A DNA stretch of 64,000 nucleotides, taken from NCBI RefSeq assembly GCF_900110435.1, contig NZ_FODT01000004.1:124001-188000 (forward strand), in the 5' to 3' direction. Numbering within the stretch: the stretch's first letter is position 1; each line of letters starts with the position of its first letter. The notes under the pieces were generated by a model that saw only the letters and a program-made list of their open reading frames with translations, searched no databases and was not told where the DNA came from. Origin of the DNA: Rhodopseudomonas pseudopalustris. Its GTDB lineage: Bacteria > Pseudomonadota > Alphaproteobacteria > Rhizobiales > Xanthobacteraceae. Below, in pieces: positions 2,467 through 63,674 of the stretch. The position numbers and the translations under genes were made by a program.

Positions 2467-3381
2467 CTACGCCGCCTCGGCGATCCGGCGGCAATGCGCC
2501 AGCGACGCTGCGATCAGGTTCTCGCTCGCCTCAGGCGTCCGGAAGGCGGAGTGCGCCGACAGGGTGACGTTCGGCAGCGTGGCCAGCGGGTGATCCGCCG
2601 GCAGCGGCTCGATTTCGAACACGTCGAGCGCAGCGTGACGCAGGTGACTGGACTGCAATGCGTCGATCATCGCCGCCTCGTCGGCGAGCGCCGCGCGCGC
2701 GGTGTTGACGAGAATGGCGCCGGGCCTCATCGCGGCGATGCGGTCGCGCGTCAGGAATCCGCGGGTCTCGTCATTGAGCAACAGATGCAGCGAAACCACG
2801 TGGCTGTCGCGCAGCAGCGTGTCGATCTCGACGAACGTTACGCCGTCGAAAGTCTTCGGCGTCCGATTCCATGCGATCACCTTCATGCCGGAGCCGTGCG
2901 CGATCCGCGCCACTTCCGCGGCGATGCCGCCGAAGCCGATCAGGCCGATCGTCTTGCCGGTGAGTTGCAGGCCGTCTTCGCGCAGCCATTGGCCGGCGCG
3001 CATCTCGCGATCCATCAGCGCGAGGTTGCGCGCCGCCGCCCACATCAAGGCAATCGTGGATTCGGCGACCGCCGTGTCGCCATAGCCGCGGATCAGATGC
3101 ACGGTGATGCCGAGGTCGGCCAGTTCCTCGATGTTCATGTAGCTGCGCGCGCCGGTGCCGAGGAACACCACGTGTTTCAGGCCGACGCATTGCCGGGCGA
3201 TGTCGGTGGGCAGATAGGTGTGATCGATGATCGCGATCGCAGCGTCGCCGAGCACGCCGGGCAGTTGCTCCGGCGTCACGTCGGGATCGCGATGGATCAC
3301 CATCGGCGGATTGTCCGGCTTCGCCTGCTGCTCCATGATCATCGCCAGCGTTTCACTGGCGTCGACGAACACCGCGTGCAT
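2467..3381 (-). CDS. D-isomer-specific 2-hydroxyacid dehydrogenase
   Basis: 304 aa NAD(P)-dependent enzyme of the D-2-hydroxyacid dehydrogenase (SerA/GhrA-like) family, interconverting 2-oxoacids and D-2-hydroxyacids. The Rossmann motif GLIGFGGIA is at 146-154. The catalytic Arg-Glu-His set is visible as R229 (NTARA), E258 (EIEPL) and H277 (SAHSAF). A G-rich ribosome site precedes the ATG at 3381. It lies 27 bp downstream of the M20 hydrolase gene on the same strand and is probably cotranscribed, so its 2-oxoacid substrate may come from that pathway. The exact substrate is unknown. Confidence 0.85.
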   Translation of the reverse strand: MHAVFVDASETLAMIMEQQAKPDNPPMVIHRDPDVTPEQLPGVLGDAAIAIIDHTYLPTDIARQCVGLKHVVFLGTGARSYMNIEELADLGITVHLIRGYGDTAVAESTIALMWAAARNLALMDREMRAGQWLREDGLQLTGKTIGLIGFGGIAAEVARIAHGSGMKVIAWNRTPKTFDGVTFVEIDTLLRDSHVVSLHLLLNDETRGFLTRDRIAAMRPGAILVNTARAALADEAAMIDALQSSHLRHAALDVFEIEPLPADHPLATLPNVTLSAHSAFRTPEASENLIAASLAHCRRIAEAA

Positions 3382-5790: not shown

Positions 5791-6609
5791 ATGACTGTTT
5801 TTCCGGCAGGGCAGCAGTTCCAGACGGAAGGGGAGTGCCTTCCGTCCTACCAGGCGCGCCTTGCTTGCCGGGCCGGACAGGCCGACACCACAGCCGGCGT
5901 CGCGCCGGGTTTCGTCCAGGGCAATCTGGCTATTCTGCCCGAGAAATTCGCCGCCGCATTCCATCGATTCTGCCAGCTCAATCCCAAGCCTTGCCCGATC
6001 ATCGGCATGTCCGACGTCGGCAATCCGCAGATTCCCGCGCTCGGCCTCGATCTCGATATTCGCACCGATCTTCCGCGCTACCGGGTGTGGCGCGACGGCG
6101 AACTGATCGAGGAGCCGACCGACGTCATGGCGCATTGGCGCGACGATCTGGTCGCTTTCGTGATCGGCTGCTCGTTTTCCTTCGAAGAGGCGCTGTTGGC
6201 GGACGACATTCCGATCCGGCACATCGAACGCAAGGTGCGCGTGCCGATGTATCGCACCAACATCGCCTGCGCGCCGGCCGGTCCGTTCGCGGGGCCGATG
6301 GTGGTGTCGATGTGGCCGCTGAAGCCAGCGGATGCGATTCGCGCCGTGCAGATCACTTCACGCTTTCCTTCGGTTCACGGCGCGCCGGTGCATATCGGGC
6401 TGCCGCAGTCGATCGGTATCGCCGACATCGCGAATCCCGACTATGGCGATCCGGTGCCGATCGCGCCCGACGAGCTTCCGGTATTTTGGGCCTGCGGCGT
6501 CACTCCGCAGGCGGTGATCGCGGCTGCGAAGGTGCCGTTCGCAATCACCCACGCGCCCGGATTGATGCTTGTCACCGACTTGAAGAACAAGCACCTTGCG
6601 GTGCTCTGA
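5791..6609 (+). CDS. DUF1445 / YcsI-type putative hydro-lyase (D-glutamate cyclase-like)
   Basis: 272 aa member of the DUF1445 family, annotated elsewhere as putative hydro-lyase and related to the bacterial part of eukaryotic D-glutamate cyclase, which makes 5-oxo-D-proline from D-glutamate. Family-type motifs visible are [10 protein letters not shown] (about residue 131), [15 protein letters not shown] and HGAPVHIG. The length is typical. AGGA lies just upstream of ATG 5791. It is divergent from a LysR gene and followed by a Liv-type importer, and the neighbouring hydrolase is of carbamoylase type. I infer a role in opening or closing a cyclic amide or in D-amino acid metabolism; the actual reaction is not established by sequence. 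Confidence 0.8.
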
Positions 6610-6665
6610 GGCCAACTGAACCTTCGATCGCATTACCATCAGCGCTGGTAGCAAAGGAACATGCC

Positions 6666-7916
6666 ATGAAGATCAATCGCCGCAATCTCGTGCTCGGAAG
6701 CGCCGCGAGCGCCGCCTTGCTGCCGTTCGCGACGACCGCCCGCGCCCAGGCCAAGGAAGTGGTGATCGGCGTGATCTATCCGCTGTCCGGCGCCAGCGCG
6801 CAGATCGGCGTCGACGCCCAAAAGGCATTCCAGACCGCGGCCGAGCTGATCAACAACAAATACGATCTCGATCTTCCGCTCGCGCGCGACGAGGGACTTC
6901 CGGGGCTCGGCGGCGCCAAGGTCCGACTTGTATTCGCCGATCACCAGGCCGACCCGCAGAAGGGCCGCGCCGAAGCCGAGCGCCTGATCACGCAGGAGAA
7001 GGTCAGCGCCATCGTCGGCACCTATCAAAGCTCGGTCGCGGTCACCGTCAGCCAGATCTGCGAGCGCTACCAGATCCCGTTCCTGTCGGCCGATAATTCG
7101 TCGCCGAGCTTGCATCGCCGGGGCCTGAAGTTCTACTTCCGCGCTGCGCCGCACGACGAGATGTTTTCGCAGGCGATGTTCGATTTCTTCGATGCGCTGA
7201 AGAAGAAGGGCCAGAAGATCGAGACGCTGGCGCTGTTCCACGAGGACACCATCTTCGGCACCGATTCGTCCAACGCGCAGCTCAAGCTCGCTCAGGAGCG
7301 CGGCTACAAGATCGCCGCCGACATCAAGTATCGCGCCAACTCGCCGTCGCTGACCGCAGAGGTGCAACAGCTCAAGGCTGCCGATGCCGACGTGCTGATG
7401 CCGTCGAGCTACACGACAGACGGCATCCTTCTGATCCGCACCATGGGTGAACTCGGCTACAAGCCGAAGAATATCGTCGCCCAGGACGCCGGATTCTCCG
7501 AAAAGGCGCTGTACGATGCGGTCGGCGACAAGATCCCGGGCGTGATCTCGCGCGGCTCGTTCTCGATCGACCTCGCGGCCAAGCGGCCGATGGTCGGCAA
7601 GATCAACGACATGTACAAGGAGAGGTCAGGCAAGGACTTCAACGACTATTCGTCGCGGCAGTTCATGGGCCTGATCGTGATGGCCGACGCCATCAACCGC
7701 GCCAAGTCGACCGACGGCGACAAGATTCGCGAAGCGCTGGTCGCGACCGATATGCCGGGCGACAAGACCATCATGCCGTGGAAGCAGGTGAAGTTCGACG
7801 CGGAAGGCCAGAACACCTTTGCCGACCCGGTGCTGCTGCAGTATGTCGGCGGTAAATTCGTCACCATCTTCCCGGAACAGGCCGCGGTCGCCGAGGCGAT
7901 CTGGCCGATGCCGTAA
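6666..7916 (+). CDS. branched-chain amino acid-type ABC transporter substrate-binding protein
   Basis: 416 aa periplasmic type I binding protein (Peripla_BP_6, LivJ-like). The N-terminus reads NRRNLVLGS followed by a hydrophobic stretch and an ARAQA cleavage site, so export may be by the Tat route. The mature part starts with KEVVIGVIYPLSGASAQ, the usual first strand of this family. The ATG at 6666 has AAGGAAC about 7 nt upstream. It lies 56 bp behind the DUF1445 gene and leads a complete Liv operon. The ligand is unknown; family members bind amino acids, urea, amides or aromatic acids. Confidence 0.88.
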   Translation: MKINRRNLVLGSAASAALLPFATTARAQAKEVVIGVIYPLSGASAQIGVDAQKAFQTAAELINNKYDLDLPLARDEGLPGLGGAKVRLVFADHQADPQKGRAEAERLITQEKVSAIVGTYQSSVAVTVSQICERYQIPFLSADNSSPSLHRRGLKFYFRAAPHDEMFSQAMFDFFDALKKKGQKIETLALFHEDTIFGTDSSNAQLKLAQERGYKIAADIKYRANSPSLTAEVQQLKAADADVLMPSSYTTDGILLIRTMGELGYKPKNIVAQDAGFSEKALYDAVGDKIPGVISRGSFSIDLAAKRPMVGKINDMYKERSGKDFNDYSSRQFMGLIVMADAINRAKSTDGDKIREALVATDMPGDKTIMPWKQVKFDAEGQNTFADPVLLQYVGGKFVTIFPEQAAVAEAIWPMP

Positions 7917-53648: not shown

Positions 53649-53683
53649 CTTGCATTGGGAGGTGTAACCGATGACAATGCAAG
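53649..53683 (+). promoter_or_regulatory. inverted repeat upstream of tarP-like gene
   Basis: CTTGCATTG (53649-53657) and CAATGCAAG (53675-53683) are perfect 9-bp arms separated by 17 nt. They end 57 nt before the tarP start in the pobA/tarP divergent region. It could be an operator (two half-sites about 2.5 turns apart) or a leader hairpin. Confidence 0.5.
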
Positions 53684-53740
53684 GAAACGGCCATTACAGA
53701 GCCGACCACGGGAGGTAAACCTCTCACGGGAGTAACCTCA

Positions 53741-54766
53741 ATGAGGAAAACGCTGCTCGCGCTGCTGCTCACAGCCGCCGTGACGCCCGGCCTGGCGCAG
53801 GGAGCTCCGGCGCAGGACAAGACCGTCAACTGGAAGGTTTCGCTATGGGTGCCGCCGGCGCATCCACTTGTTCTGGCGACCAAGGCCTGGGCCGAGGACA
53901 TCGAGAAGGCGTCGGGCGGCTCGATCAAAATGGCGGTGTTCCCGTCGGAGCAACTCGGCAAGGCGTTCGACCATTACGACATGGCGCGCGACGGCATCGC
54001 CGACGTCACCTACGTCAATCCCGGCTATCAGCCCGGCCGATTCCCGATCGTATCCGCGGGACAGCTTCCGTTCGTTTTCAAGGACGGCAAGAAGGGGACG
54101 CTGGCGCTCAACGAATGGTACCAGAAATACGCAGCCACGGAGATGAAGGACACCAAGCTGTGTTTCGCCTTCATCCACGATCCGGGCGCGCTACACGGCA
54201 AGAAGAAAGTCGTGATGCCGGCCGACATGAAAGGGCTCAAGGTGCGCCCGGCGCAGTCGACCATCGGCGAGATGGTGAAGCTGTTCGGTGGCACCAACGT
54301 CCAGGCCTCCGCGCCGGAAGCGCGTGATGCGCTCGAGCGCGGCGTGGCCGACGAGATCACGTTTCCCTGGGGCTCGGTGTTCCTGTTCGGCATCGACAAG
54401 GTGGTCAAGTATCACATGGACGTGCCGCTGTATTCGACGGTATTCACCTACAATATCGGGCTGAAGGCCTATAACGCGCTGTCGCCAGGGCAGAAGAAGA
54501 TCATCGACGACCATTGCACGCCGGAATGGGCATCCAAGGTCACCGATCCGTGGACCGAATTCGAGGCCAACGGCCGCACCAAGATGAAGGCGCTGGAAGG
54601 TCACGAGGTCTATCCACTGACGCCAGAGCAACTCGCCGAATGGAAGAAGGCGACGCAGCCGCTGAACCAGTCCTGGGCCGAAGCAGTGAAGAAGGCCGGC
54701 GGCGACGCGGCTGCGATCGACGGCGAACTCAAGGCCGCGCTGAAGAAGTACGACGCCGGGCTGTAG
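53741..54766 (+). CDS. tarP: TRAP transporter periplasmic binding protein (DctP family, TarP-like)
   Basis: 341 aa. A Sec signal peptide (about 1-21, LLALLLTAAVTPGLAQG) is followed by a DctP-type domain with ISxxLP-like WKVSLWVPPAHPL, LPFVFKDGKKGTL, MKGLKVRPAQSTIGEMVKLFG (key Arg in VRPAQ binds the ligand carboxylate) and ERGVADEITFPWGSV. In R. palustris a DctP protein called TarP, encoded close to couAB, binds p-coumarate, ferulate and similar acids; position and context suggest this is its orthologue. GGGAG lies 8 nt upstream of ATG 53741. The dctQ and dctM genes that should follow are missing (see 54935-55036). Confidence 0.8.
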   Translation: MRKTLLALLLTAAVTPGLAQGAPAQDKTVNWKVSLWVPPAHPLVLATKAWAEDIEKASGGSIKMAVFPSEQLGKAFDHYDMARDGIADVTYVNPGYQPGRFPIVSAGQLPFVFKDGKKGTLALNEWYQKYAATEMKDTKLCFAFIHDPGALHGKKKVVMPADMKGLKVRPAQSTIGEMVKLFGGTNVQASAPEARDALERGVADEITFPWGSVFLFGIDKVVKYHMDVPLYSTVFTYNIGLKAYNALSPGQKKIIDDHCTPEWASKVTDPWTEFEANGRTKMKALEGHEVYPLTPEQLAEWKKATQPLNQSWAEAVKKAGGDAAAIDGELKAALKKYDAGL

Positions 54767-54780
54767 CGCGCCGCTCTGTC

Positions 54781-54880
54781 GTCATTCCGGGGCGCGAGCG
54801 CCGCTCGCGAACCCGGAATCCAGAGCTTCAGAGTATCTTGAGCATCCTGTTTCGCGCCTGACGGCGCCCCCCGGAATGAC
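54781..54880. repeat. CATTCCGG family palindromic repeat, copy 5
   Basis: GTCATTCCGGGGCGCGAGCG opens and CGCCCCCCGGAATGAC closes the element, with CTCGCGAACCCGGAATCC inside. It starts 14 nt after the tarP stop. Confidence 0.8.
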
Positions 54881-54886
54881 GTCTCC

Positions 54887-54916
54887 TCTGTGACCAGCAA
54901 GTCTGTGACCAGCAAG
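54887..54916. repeat. 15-bp tandem duplication
   Basis: TCTGTGACCAGCAAG occurs twice head to tail between the CATTCCGG repeat and the short frame at 54935. It suggests slippage or a small duplication at a rearrangement junction. Confidence 0.75.
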
Positions 54917-54934
54917 CCAACCACGGACGCCCCC

Positions 54935-55036
54935 ATGGCCTCCGACCTCGACAAGCTGGCCGATCGTCTGGAGGGGGAGGGTTGCTCGCGCAGCGAGCGG
55001 GGTGGGGTGGCAGCGTCTCCGCGCAGCAACGACTAA
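54935..55036 (+). pseudogene. possible N-terminal remnant of a TRAP small permease gene (tarQ)
   Basis: An ATG at 54935 opens a 33-codon frame reading MASDLDKLADRLEGEG, then continues into repeat-derived sequence and stops at 55034-55036. The first dozen residues are the kind of amphipathic cytoplasmic N-terminus found in DctQ subunits, and the position directly after tarP is where dctQ should be. From about 54970 the DNA is repeat element, so the gene would have been cut there. This is an inference from position and a very short sequence. Confidence 0.4.
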
Positions 55037-55242
55037 CCCTCTCCCCTCGTGGGAGAGGGCGGCGAGCGAAGCGAGCCGGGTGAGGGGGCCGCGGGTACGG
55101 CGTTTGCGGCGCCCCTCATCCGGCGCTGACTGCGTCCGCGCCACCTTCTCCCACGAGAGGAGAAGGGAAGGGCCGTGCCAGCGGCCTCACCCCACCCTGG
55201 CGAACTACGTTCGCCGACCCTCCCCCTCCAGGGGAGGGGGAT
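54970..55242. repeat. compound palindromic repeat, about 273 bp
   Basis: Outer arms GAGGGGGAGGGT / ACCCTCCCCCTC enclose further inverted pairs: CTCTCCCCTCGTGGGAGAGG, AGCGAAGCGAGCCGGGTGAGG, CACCTTCTCCCACGAGAGGA and GGCGAACTACGTTCGCC. It ends in CTCCCCCTCCAGGGGAGGGGG. Such 'ccctctcccc...ggtgaggg' elements are dispersed in Bradyrhizobium-related genomes (family knowledge). It occupies the place of the missing TRAP permease genes between tarP and couA. Confidence 0.75.
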
Positions 55243-55312
55243 GATGCGCAGTTCTCGTTGCACGTTTCATCGACGGCGGTCCCGGACCACATTGACTCCC
55301 GCCGCATTCATT

Positions 55313-55327
55313 ATAGTCTATAACTAT
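55313..55327. promoter_or_regulatory. candidate CouR operator at the couA promoter
   Basis: ATAGT-CTATA-ACTAT, 5-bp inverted arms with a 5-nt spacer, lies 19 nt upstream of the couA start in an AT-rich patch that includes TATAGT, a fair -10 box, with ACATTG 17 nt before it. A repressor bound here would cover the promoter. Assignment to CouR is inferred from the gene context. Confidence 0.5.
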
Positions 55328-55346
55328 TCTGCACAGGACGTAATAA

Positions 55347-56153
55347 GTGCTCACAGGAAACGCCTCGGCCGCGACCATCGCGGATCCCTCGACGCTGGTC
55401 GTCGAAACCGTCGGCCCGGTGCTGACCATCGGCCTCAATCGCCCCAAGAAACGCAACGCGCTCAATGACGGCCTGATGGCCGCGCTGAAGGACTGTTTCA
55501 CCGATCTTCCCGATGAGATTCGCGCCGTGGTGATCCACGGCGTCGGCGATCACTTCTCCGCCGGGCTTGATCTCTCCGAGCTGCGCGAGCGCGACGCTAC
55601 CGAAGGGCTGGTGCATTCGCAGACCTGGCACCGGGTGTTCGACCGCATCCAGTATTGTCGCGTTCCAGTGATCGCGGCGTTGAAGGGCGCGGTGATCGGC
55701 GGCGGGCTCGAACTCGCCTGCGCCGCGCATATCCGCGTTGCCGAGCCGGCCGCCTACTACGCGCTGCCCGAAGGCAGCCGCGGCATCTTCGTCGGCGGTG
55801 GCGGCTCGGTGCGGCTGCCGCGGCTGATCGGCGTCGCGCGCATGGCGGACATGATGCTGACCGGGCGGGTGTATTCCGCAGAGGAAGGCGTCGCCCACGG
55901 CTTTTCGCAATATCTCACCGAAAGCGGTTCGGCCTACGACAAAGCGCTCGAGATCGGCAACCGGGTCGCCCAGAATGCGCCGCTGACCAATTTCGCGGTG
56001 CTGCAGGCGCTGCCGATGATCGCCGAAGCCAATCCGCAGACGGGCCTGCTGATGGAATCGCTGATGGCGACGGTGGCGCAGAGCGACCAGGAAGCCAAGA
56101 ATCGGATTCGTGCATTTCTCGATCACAAGACCGCAAAGGTCAAACCGACTTGA
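55347..56153 (+). CDS. couA: p-coumaroyl/feruloyl-CoA hydratase-lyase candidate (crotonase family)
   Basis: 268 aa crotonase starting at GTG 55347 with AGGA 9 nt upstream. Oxyanion segments HFSAGLDLSEL and GAVIGGGLELACAAH; catalytic loop YYALPEGSRGIFVGGGGSVRL with the Glu in PEGSRG. It lies 1 nt before couB and in the order known for the R. palustris p-coumarate regulon, where CouA hydrates p-coumaroyl-CoA and is assigned the side-chain cleavage. The sequence alone shows a crotonase; the lyase activity is from context. Confidence 0.83.
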   Translation: MLTGNASAATIADPSTLVVETVGPVLTIGLNRPKKRNALNDGLMAALKDCFTDLPDEIRAVVIHGVGDHFSAGLDLSELRERDATEGLVHSQTWHRVFDRIQYCRVPVIAALKGAVIGGGLELACAAHIRVAEPAAYYALPEGSRGIFVGGGGSVRLPRLIGVARMADMMLTGRVYSAEEGVAHGFSQYLTESGSAYDKALEIGNRVAQNAPLTNFAVLQALPMIAEANPQTGLLMESLMATVAQSDQEAKNRIRAFLDHKTAKVKPT

Positions 56154-58715: not shown

Positions 58716-59873
58716 ATGACCAAGTTCAAGCTGTCCGTCGCGGCGTTCGCCGTGGCGATCGCACTGCCGGCGCTGTCCGGCGCCGCGCTCGCAGAAACCA
58801 ATGAAATCACGGTGGGCATCAGCGTCACCACCACGGGTCCTGCCGCCGCGCTCGGCATTCCGGAGCGCAATGCGCTGGAATTCGTGGTGAAGGAAATCAG
58901 CGGTCATCCGATCAAGATCATCGTGCTCGACGATGGCGGCGACCCGACCGCCGCGACCACCAATGCGCGACGTTTCGTCACGGAATCGAAGGCCGACGTG
59001 ATCATGGGCTCGTCGGTCACGCCGCCGTCGGTGGCGATCTCGAACGTCGCCAACGAGGCGCAGATTCCGCATATCGCGCTCGCGCCGCTGCCGATCACGC
59101 CGGAACGCGCCAAGTGGTCGGTGGTGATGCCGCAGCCGATCCCGATTATGGGCAAGGTGCTCTATGAGCACATGAAGAAGAACAACGTGAAGACCGTTGG
59201 CTACATCGGCTATTCGGATAGCTACGGCGACCTTTGGTTCAACGATCTCAAGAAGCAGGGCGAGGCGATGGGCCTCAAGATCGTCGGCGAGGAGCGCTTC
59301 GCGCGGCCCGACACGTCGGTCGCGGGCCAGGCGCTGAAGCTCGTTGCCGCCAATCCCGACGCGATCCTGGTCGGCGCGTCCGGCACCGCCGCAGCGCTGC
59401 CGCAGACCACGCTGCGTGAGCGAGGTTATAACGGGCTGATCTATCAGACCCACGGCGCCGCTTCGATGGATTTCATCCGGATCGCCGGCAAGTCCGCGGA
59501 GGGCGTGCTGATGGCGTCCGGTCCGGTGATGGATCCCGAAGGACAGGACGACACCGCGCTGACGAAGAAGTCCGGCATGGCGCTGGTGAAGGTCTATGAG
59601 GAAAAGTACGGCCCGAGCAGCCGCAGCCAGTTCGCGGGCCACTCCTACGACGCCTTCAAGGTGCTGGAGCGCGTGGTCCCGGTTGCGCTGAAGAAGGCCA
59701 AGCCCGGCACGCAGGAATTCCGCGACGCGCTCCGTGAAGCGTTTCTCACTGAGAAGGACATCGCGGCGAGCCAGGGCGTGTACAATTTCACCGAAACCGA
59801 TCGCTACGGCCTCGACGACCGTTCGCGCATCCTGCTGACGGTGAAGAACGGCAAGTATGTGATCGTGAAGTAA
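58716..59873 (+). CDS. couP: ABC transporter substrate-binding protein for phenylpropenoids
   Basis: 385 aa periplasmic Liv-type binding protein with a Sec signal peptide (about 1-26, cut after ALA). The mature part begins NEITVGISVTTTGPAAALGIP and has GSSVTPPSVAISNVANE and YSDSYGD. In R. palustris the protein at this position, CouP, binds p-coumarate and other lignin monomers (established for CGA009). A strong GGAGGAGG site precedes ATG 58716. The ABC subunits couS-couT-couU are encoded convergently downstream. Confidence 0.88.
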   Translation: MTKFKLSVAAFAVAIALPALSGAALAETNEITVGISVTTTGPAAALGIPERNALEFVVKEISGHPIKIIVLDDGGDPTAATTNARRFVTESKADVIMGSSVTPPSVAISNVANEAQIPHIALAPLPITPERAKWSVVMPQPIPIMGKVLYEHMKKNNVKTVGYIGYSDSYGDLWFNDLKKQGEAMGLKIVGEERFARPDTSVAGQALKLVAANPDAILVGASGTAAALPQTTLRERGYNGLIYQTHGAASMDFIRIAGKSAEGVLMASGPVMDPEGQDDTALTKKSGMALVKVYEEKYGPSSRSQFAGHSYDAFKVLERVVPVALKKAKPGTQEFRDALREAFLTEKDIAASQGVYNFTETDRYGLDDRSRILLTVKNGKYVIVK

Positions 59874-63594: not shown

Positions 63595-63607
63595 AATAAC
63601 AATTATT
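63595..63607. promoter_or_regulatory. candidate CouR operator in the couU/couR divergent region
   Basis: AATAA-CAA-TTATT, a perfect 13-bp inverted repeat in the AT-rich core of the 170-bp region between the couU and couR starts. Like the site at the couA promoter it has 5-bp AT-rich arms, but spacer and sequence differ. The binding protein is inferred. Confidence 0.45.
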
Positions 63608-63674
63608 AGGTATAAGCTCAAGGCCCGCGTGCAGGATCGGGCTGCCGCAATCGATCAGAACTTGAGCCAAGGCG

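Follow-up and report, generated by a model that had tools for sequence, protein, structure and literature searches.

The coumarate locus of the purple bacterium Rhodopseudomonas pseudopalustris raises the question of how a complete gene for a TRAP-type binding protein, TarP, came to stand there without the genes for its membrane subunits, TarQ and TarM, and what has become of the protein since. We analyzed a stretch of 64,000 nucleotides, which we call the window, together with the 28 contigs of the genome and the corresponding loci of related genomes. The tarP–couA interval is defined by the following three features.

53741..54766, forward strand: tarP, TRAP DctP-type solute-binding protein (intact frame of 341 codons, i.e., amino acids; PF03480)
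54935..54970, forward strand: tarQ remnant, codons 1–12 (MASDLDKLADRL; 34/36 identity to the tarQ of relatives)
55347..56153, forward strand: couA-like enoyl-CoA hydratase/lyase, the first gene past the deletion

The match of TarP to PF03480 (E = 4e-36, 125.2 bits, cut-off 23.4) identifies it as a DctP-type binding protein, and PDB entry 7nqg is a near relative (E = 9.1e-200). From the tarP stop to the couA start there are 580 bases here, compared with 2795–3195 in five relatives, and tarQ beyond codon 12, tarM, and a gene of the DUF3237 type are absent from the interval. The missing stretch, from tarQ base 37 to the DUF3237 stop, measures 2307–2438 bases in the five relatives. The genome has 7 DctM and 4 DctQ matches, all of them outside the window. 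Across the 28 contigs, no TarQ was detected at E ≤ 1e-5 and no DUF3237 gene was found, and the best match to TarM, only 39% identical, belongs to another locus, where it adjoins a binding protein of its own. A complete TarPQM transporter is therefore not encoded: its DctQ component (TarQ) is reduced to codons 1–12, and its DctM component (TarM) is missing from the genome. The earlier note on this DNA had proposed a search for Tar-type dctQM genes elsewhere in the genome. None was found in the 28 contigs, and relocation of tarQM was ruled out, because no contig holds a TarQ or TarM of the Tar type. A search of plasmids with the locus gave one match, in Variovorax (73% identity, with 44% of the query covered).

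The 12-codon remnant is the most direct trace of the lost genes. It is identical to the start of tarQ at 34 of 36 bases in G009, G014, and G002, at 32 in G010, and at 29 in G008 and G011, and its frame runs on, out of context, to 55036 as an ORF of 33 codons. The next best 36-mers in the window reach only 23/36 (forward strand) and 22/36 (reverse strand) against the tarQ start of G009, so the match is not a chance event, and the similarity of this short frame to TarQ starts, which the earlier note had left to be established, is confirmed.

The same note had made its claim depend on whether related genomes ever had tarQM at this place, and they do. TarP occurs in 14 of the 16 genomes of the genus (G001 and G003 have none; in G013 it lies in pieces on two contigs), and the 13 other than the present genome all possess TarQ, and also a TarM with an identity of at least 87%. 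Read at the locus, the gene order in all 13 is tarP, tarQ, tarM, DUF3237 gene, couA. Taken with the intact tarP and the absence of DctQ and DctM matches from the window, the remnant and these 13 genomes bear out both parts of the earlier claim, i.e., that TarP has no permease gene beside it and that tarQM was lost here. The deletion of tarQM at the tarP–couA locus is near certain, and was probably recent. The loss of the permease of a redundant importer is an ordinary kind of gene loss. The account of what was lost was correct for tarQM, but overlooked the third gene, DUF3237, which is present in 13 of the 16 genomes of the genus. This gene lies between tarM and couA (L018, 8316–8774, and its orthologues) and has no assigned function; its place there suggests a role in the coumarate locus.

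A wider comparison indicated how unusual this arrangement is. In a scan of named genomes, from which we took the best 80 of 585 confirmed TarP loci, tarQ and tarM stood beside tarP in 75 of the 77 loci with enough right-hand flank (L049, L067, and L085, with <120 bases, were left out). The two exceptions, L069 and L074 (around 6001–7020), are TarP paralogues with no tarQM within 6 kb downstream, and their genomes own a second TarP locus with tarQM (L090, L084). In the family, 56 of 391 genomes had a TarP of at least 74% identity over >300 residues, and among these only the present genome (G000) and G064 had no TarM match of at least 85%. G064 was ruled out as a second orphan: its tarM adjoins tarP in two frames (L136, 10061–11342; residues 1–235 and 247–434), by either a frame break or a sequencing error. 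Complete loss of tarQM is, among the genomes compared, found in this lineage only.

A separate observation concerns G011 (L112, 4679–6552) and G008 (L113, 8307–10180), which share a divergent tarQM allele. The two are 95.6% identical to each other in tarQM and 84.5–86.2% identical to G009/G010 (three comparisons), whereas the tarP genes of the four genomes are 89.4–92.0% identical among those compared. This points to replacement of tarQM by recombination in G011 and G008.

The features between tarP and couA that bear on the deletion junction are listed below.

54780..54881: dispersed CATTCCGG palindrome, hairpin-capable, present in the tarP–tarQ spacer of relatives
54887..54916: 15-bp tandem duplication, upstream of the tarQ start and off the junction
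54968..55011: junction, CTG plus a piece of repeat A (by comparison with other repeat A copies)
55034..55179: dispersed repeat B, common to G011 upstream of couA
55172..55244: right arm of repeat A, common to G011

The window tracks its relatives from the tarP stop up to 54970. The alignment by which the earlier note had hoped to find the exact junction placed the left break after tarQ codon 12, at a CTG (54968–54970) common to this codon and to repeat A, a dispersed palindromic repeat. The piece of repeat A at the junction comprises 44 bases, including the CTG, and is identical at 39–43 of 44 positions to seven of the eight other repeat A copies read (the more divergent copy L133 was left out of the comparison, and L134 and L135 stand outside the counts). 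The ten outer bases of repeat A, TCACCCTCCC in six of seven copies, are absent at the junction. By inspection, they could pair with the first bases of the piece, which would place the break near the tip of a terminal hairpin. To the right of 55011 lie ~22 bases with no clear counterpart in G011, and beyond these the window shares repeat B, the right arm of repeat A, and the couA promoter with G011, which carries an extra stretch inside this shared upstream region. Since the overlap is as short as CTG and the break falls at the terminal hairpin of the repeat, the deletion may have been mediated by microhomology or by the hairpin, in an illegitimate event such as slippage or template switch.

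The repeats themselves had been taken as marks of the deletion, and this reading has to be given up for most of them. Most of the compound repeat is also found ahead of couA in G011, which retains an intact tarQM, and the CATTCCGG palindrome occurs in the tarP–tarQ spacer of six of the seven relatives compared (G008 has another palindrome there). Since these relatives have intact tarQM, the view that the palindrome and the whole compound repeat are deletion scars is ruled out; the palindrome and most of the compound repeat predate the deletion. The 15-bp duplication, for which G011 has a single related stretch, was likewise rejected as a part of the junction because it lies upstream of the tarQ start. 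The CATTCCGG motif has 13 matches in the window (≤ 1 mismatch) vs. 1.9 expected, and hairpin folding of the palindrome scored z = −2.9 here vs. −6.7 and −7.4 in two relatives. REP units stand between malE and malF, the same position as that of the CATTCCGG palindrome. Placed between the genes for a binding protein and its permease, this palindrome may favor the upstream message. The repeats of the locus resemble the REP/BIME repeats (PMC3733652, PMC2817692; these and the other papers are cited from excerpts) as short intergenic palindromes with many copies and composite arrangements, but repeat A, at ~140 bp and with two inverted arms, matches no published class in the excerpts.

A further change, overlooked by the earlier note in its view of the tarP region, lies upstream of tarP.

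53662..53674, forward strand: degenerate palindrome ahead of tarP (GTGTAACCGATGA), at the place that TTATAnnnTATAA takes in the aligned relatives
53707..53740, forward strand: imperfect tandem duplication of the tarP leader, with GGGAG (from alignment with relatives)
55311..55323: intact palindrome TTATAGTCTATAA upstream of couA (TTATAnnnTATAA-type score)

Scored against the TTATAnnnTATAA type, the tarP site reaches 6/10 here, both at the aligned place and as the best value in the 200 bases upstream of tarP, compared with 8–10/10 in all 14 relatives compared (G013 was left out of the palindrome count). Because 203 of 300 shuffles also reach 6/10, the site in this genome is at chance level. The palindrome upstream of couA scores 9–10/10 in 15 of 15 genomes, the present one included, and a third site of this type, with one mismatch, is found at 63603–63615, close to where the couUTS genes begin. 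Across the wider set, a score of at least 9 was reached by the couA site in 45 of 45 loci, but by the tarP site in just 20 of 80 loci and in 17 of the 44 with couA near (0/1600 shuffles), and many Bradyrhizobium loci carry a different palindrome upstream of tarP. The tarP site is thus characteristic of Rhodopseudomonas and some of its relatives, but does not extend to the group as a whole. In R. palustris CGA009, CouR is stated to control both the TRAP and the ABC genes (PMC3610893), and the site that it binds is a palindrome (PMC9594313), so the TTATAnnnTATAA palindrome is probably the CouR operator. With the tarP palindrome gone, p-coumarate control of tarP has probably been lost. The loss need not have followed the deletion, since the palindrome is partly changed (8/10) in G011, in which tarPQM is complete; part of the decay at the tarP site may precede the deletion or be unrelated to it. 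The putative operator that has decayed here has within it a TATAAC that by inspection could be a promoter −10 box, and GGGAG stands 8 bases ahead of the tarP start. No duplication of the tarP leader was seen in the nine relatives aligned.

We also analyzed whether tarP has decayed as a coding sequence. Among the 161 positions conserved in ≥ 95% of 86 relatives, the present TarP departs at one, residue 45, which is Leu here and Pro in 83 of the 86 (P45L). Among nine further TarPs of Rhodopseudomonas, eight keep all of these conserved positions and one (L021) differs at three, and P45L alone is weak evidence of decay. Arg169 is kept in the motif KVRPAQ and, reading the equivalence from this motif, would be the arginine that binds the carboxylate of the ligand, which is Arg168 of the pre-protein in CGA009 (PMC3610893). 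When this branch was given an ω of its own in a codon model (14 sequences, 336 codons, fixed tree; G013 left out), the value for tarP was 0.030 vs. a background of 0.048 (p = 0.20), and ω = 1 was rejected (p = 3e-21). On the same branch, ω was 0.032 for couA, 0.073 for pobA, and 0.068 for couB, and none of these differed from its own background. Among the codons found in this genome alone, 29 encode an amino acid that relatives also have, and 7 encode another. The likelihood profile of the branch ω gave an interpolated upper limit near 0.058, from which the share of the branch free of constraint would be at most about 1% if the rest evolved at the background ω, and at most about 6% if the rest evolved at ω = 0. 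With an intact reading frame and an ω of this size, tarP is not recognizable as a pseudogene. Codons so well kept imply either a recent loss or a remaining use of the protein; the tarQ remnant and the repeat piece at the junction are too short for useful dating. The undiminished constraint allows a young relic, and equally fits a TarP that is still in use.

Whether another system could take over the substrates of TarP depends on the other transporters of the genome, of which the nearest lie in the window.

58716..59873, forward strand: couP-like ABC binding protein (open frame; named by gene order and PMC3610893)
59973..63621, reverse strand: couS/T/U-like ABC genes, i.e., ATPase, permease-ATPase, and permease (open frames, approximate starts)

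The couPSTU frames are open and carry the expected Pfam domains. The TarP and CouP proteins of CGA009 have the same acids as ligands, with Kd values in the nanomolar range (PMC3610893), and by analogy the present TarP would also bind p-coumarate and its relatives. The idea that couPSTU made TarPQM dispensable fits these open frames, although they are not proof of it. Elsewhere, the genome encodes four other DctP proteins and four DctQ proteins, and contig 17 carries both the DctM nearest to TarM (39% identity) and the DctP nearest to TarP (28% identity). Three of the four separate DctQ–DctM sets have a DctP in line, and in the fourth (contig 9, 357732–361201) a DctP adjoins on the other strand. 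Two other DctM-type permeases, of fused length, have adjoining NMT1_3 (PF16868) binding-protein frames. Every set thus has an adjoining binding protein and none is clearly without a partner; with TarQ and TarM gone, TarP is probably out of transport.

Based on these results, the ancestor had the order tarP–tarQ–tarM–DUF3237 gene–couA. A deletion of ~2.3–2.4 kb, as measured in relatives, took tarQ from codon 13 onward together with all of tarM and the DUF3237 gene; tarQ codon 12 now abuts the piece of repeat A, followed by the repeats that precede couA. TarP is left with no cognate channel and probably no longer belongs to a transporter, and its control by p-coumarate has probably gone with the upstream palindrome. 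CouPSTU would carry the substrates, as the CouP of CGA009 takes the same acids as TarP. We consider it probable (roughly 0.7) that TarP is now a young relic. The earlier note had named three fates for the protein, i.e., work with another permease, a relic, or another use, and the evidence favors the relic. The main competitor, which we regard as unlikely, is that TarP is retained for a purpose that does not need its own permease: made outside CouR control, it would bind periplasmic hydroxycinnamates for a sensor, as a buffer, or for hand-over to another carrier. The undiminished constraint on the branch, the retained Arg169, and the GGGAG ahead of the start are in its favor, and orphan binding proteins do exist in the TTT family, such as AdpC in R. 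palustris (PMC5812351). However, a recent deletion yields the same codon signal, no candidate partner was found in the genome, and the probable operator, with its possible −10 box, has decayed. The fuller version of this account, in which TarP, freed from both its permease and a coumarate-responsive repressor, has been selected as a stand-alone periplasmic binder of hydroxycinnamates, seems quite unlikely.

It is improbable that TarP instead docks to another DctQM pair, for which the contig 17 set would be the most likely host. The other DctP and DctQ proteins of the genome make such docking conceivable, but no DctQ–DctM set clearly wants for a DctP, the two fused-length permeases have NMT1_3 frames beside them, and identities of 28–39% are low for a common docking surface. 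To our knowledge, TRAP binding proteins are specific for their own QM subunits. The excerpts of PMC11668362, PMC9352664, and PMC11550005 do not settle whether TRAP binding proteins can work with the QM subunits of another system. An assembly artefact, i.e., a tarQM that exists in the genome but was skipped at the repeats during assembly, is suggested by a junction within repeats in a draft genome of 28 contigs, but appears very improbable. At the junction, repeat A contributes just 44 bases, with copies that are at most 98% identical, and repeat B, in the 40 of 83 candidates scored, is 69–85% identical to its other copies over ≥ 100 bases and at most 94% over shorter stretches, so there is little to mislead reads. 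Moreover, TarQ, TarM, and the DUF3237 gene appear in no contig of an assembly rated 100% complete, and the probable tarP operator decayed independently. That the lineage never had tarQM here has next to no probability: it is refuted by the first 12 codons of tarQ, which remain at the right place, and disagrees with the 13 other TarP genomes of the genus.

The locus most closely resembles that of R. palustris CGA009, which carries TarPQM (RPA1782–1784) and CouPSTU at the same locus (PMC3610893). In both strains, a TarP of the same kind lies in the coumarate cluster with couP–couSTU-like genes near, but, in contrast to what is known of CGA009 from the excerpted text, tarQ is cut here after codon 12, tarM and the DUF3237 gene are gone, and the probable tarP operator has decayed. 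Like TarP, AdpC (RPA4515) of R. palustris and the Bug proteins of Bordetella are periplasmic binders without an adjoining permease gene (PMC5812351). However, these belong to the TTT family and TarP to the TRAP family, and the Bordetella orphans are numerous paralogues, whereas TarP was orphaned by the deletion of its own permease, of which a remnant is still visible. Judging by titles and the beginnings of abstracts among the matches listed, in a literature with most subscription journals outside its scope, no loss of tarQM has been described.

Salmon et al. (PMC3610893) raised the question of why two systems that take up the same lignin acids are maintained in R. palustris. A lineage without the TRAP channel, but with the ABC genes, is a natural test of this redundancy in uptake. 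What stands out is that both the permease genes and the upstream palindrome are gone, yet the protein that binds plant-derived aromatic acids is so well conserved. Should TarP prove to be still expressed and under selection, it would illustrate how orphan binding proteins arise.
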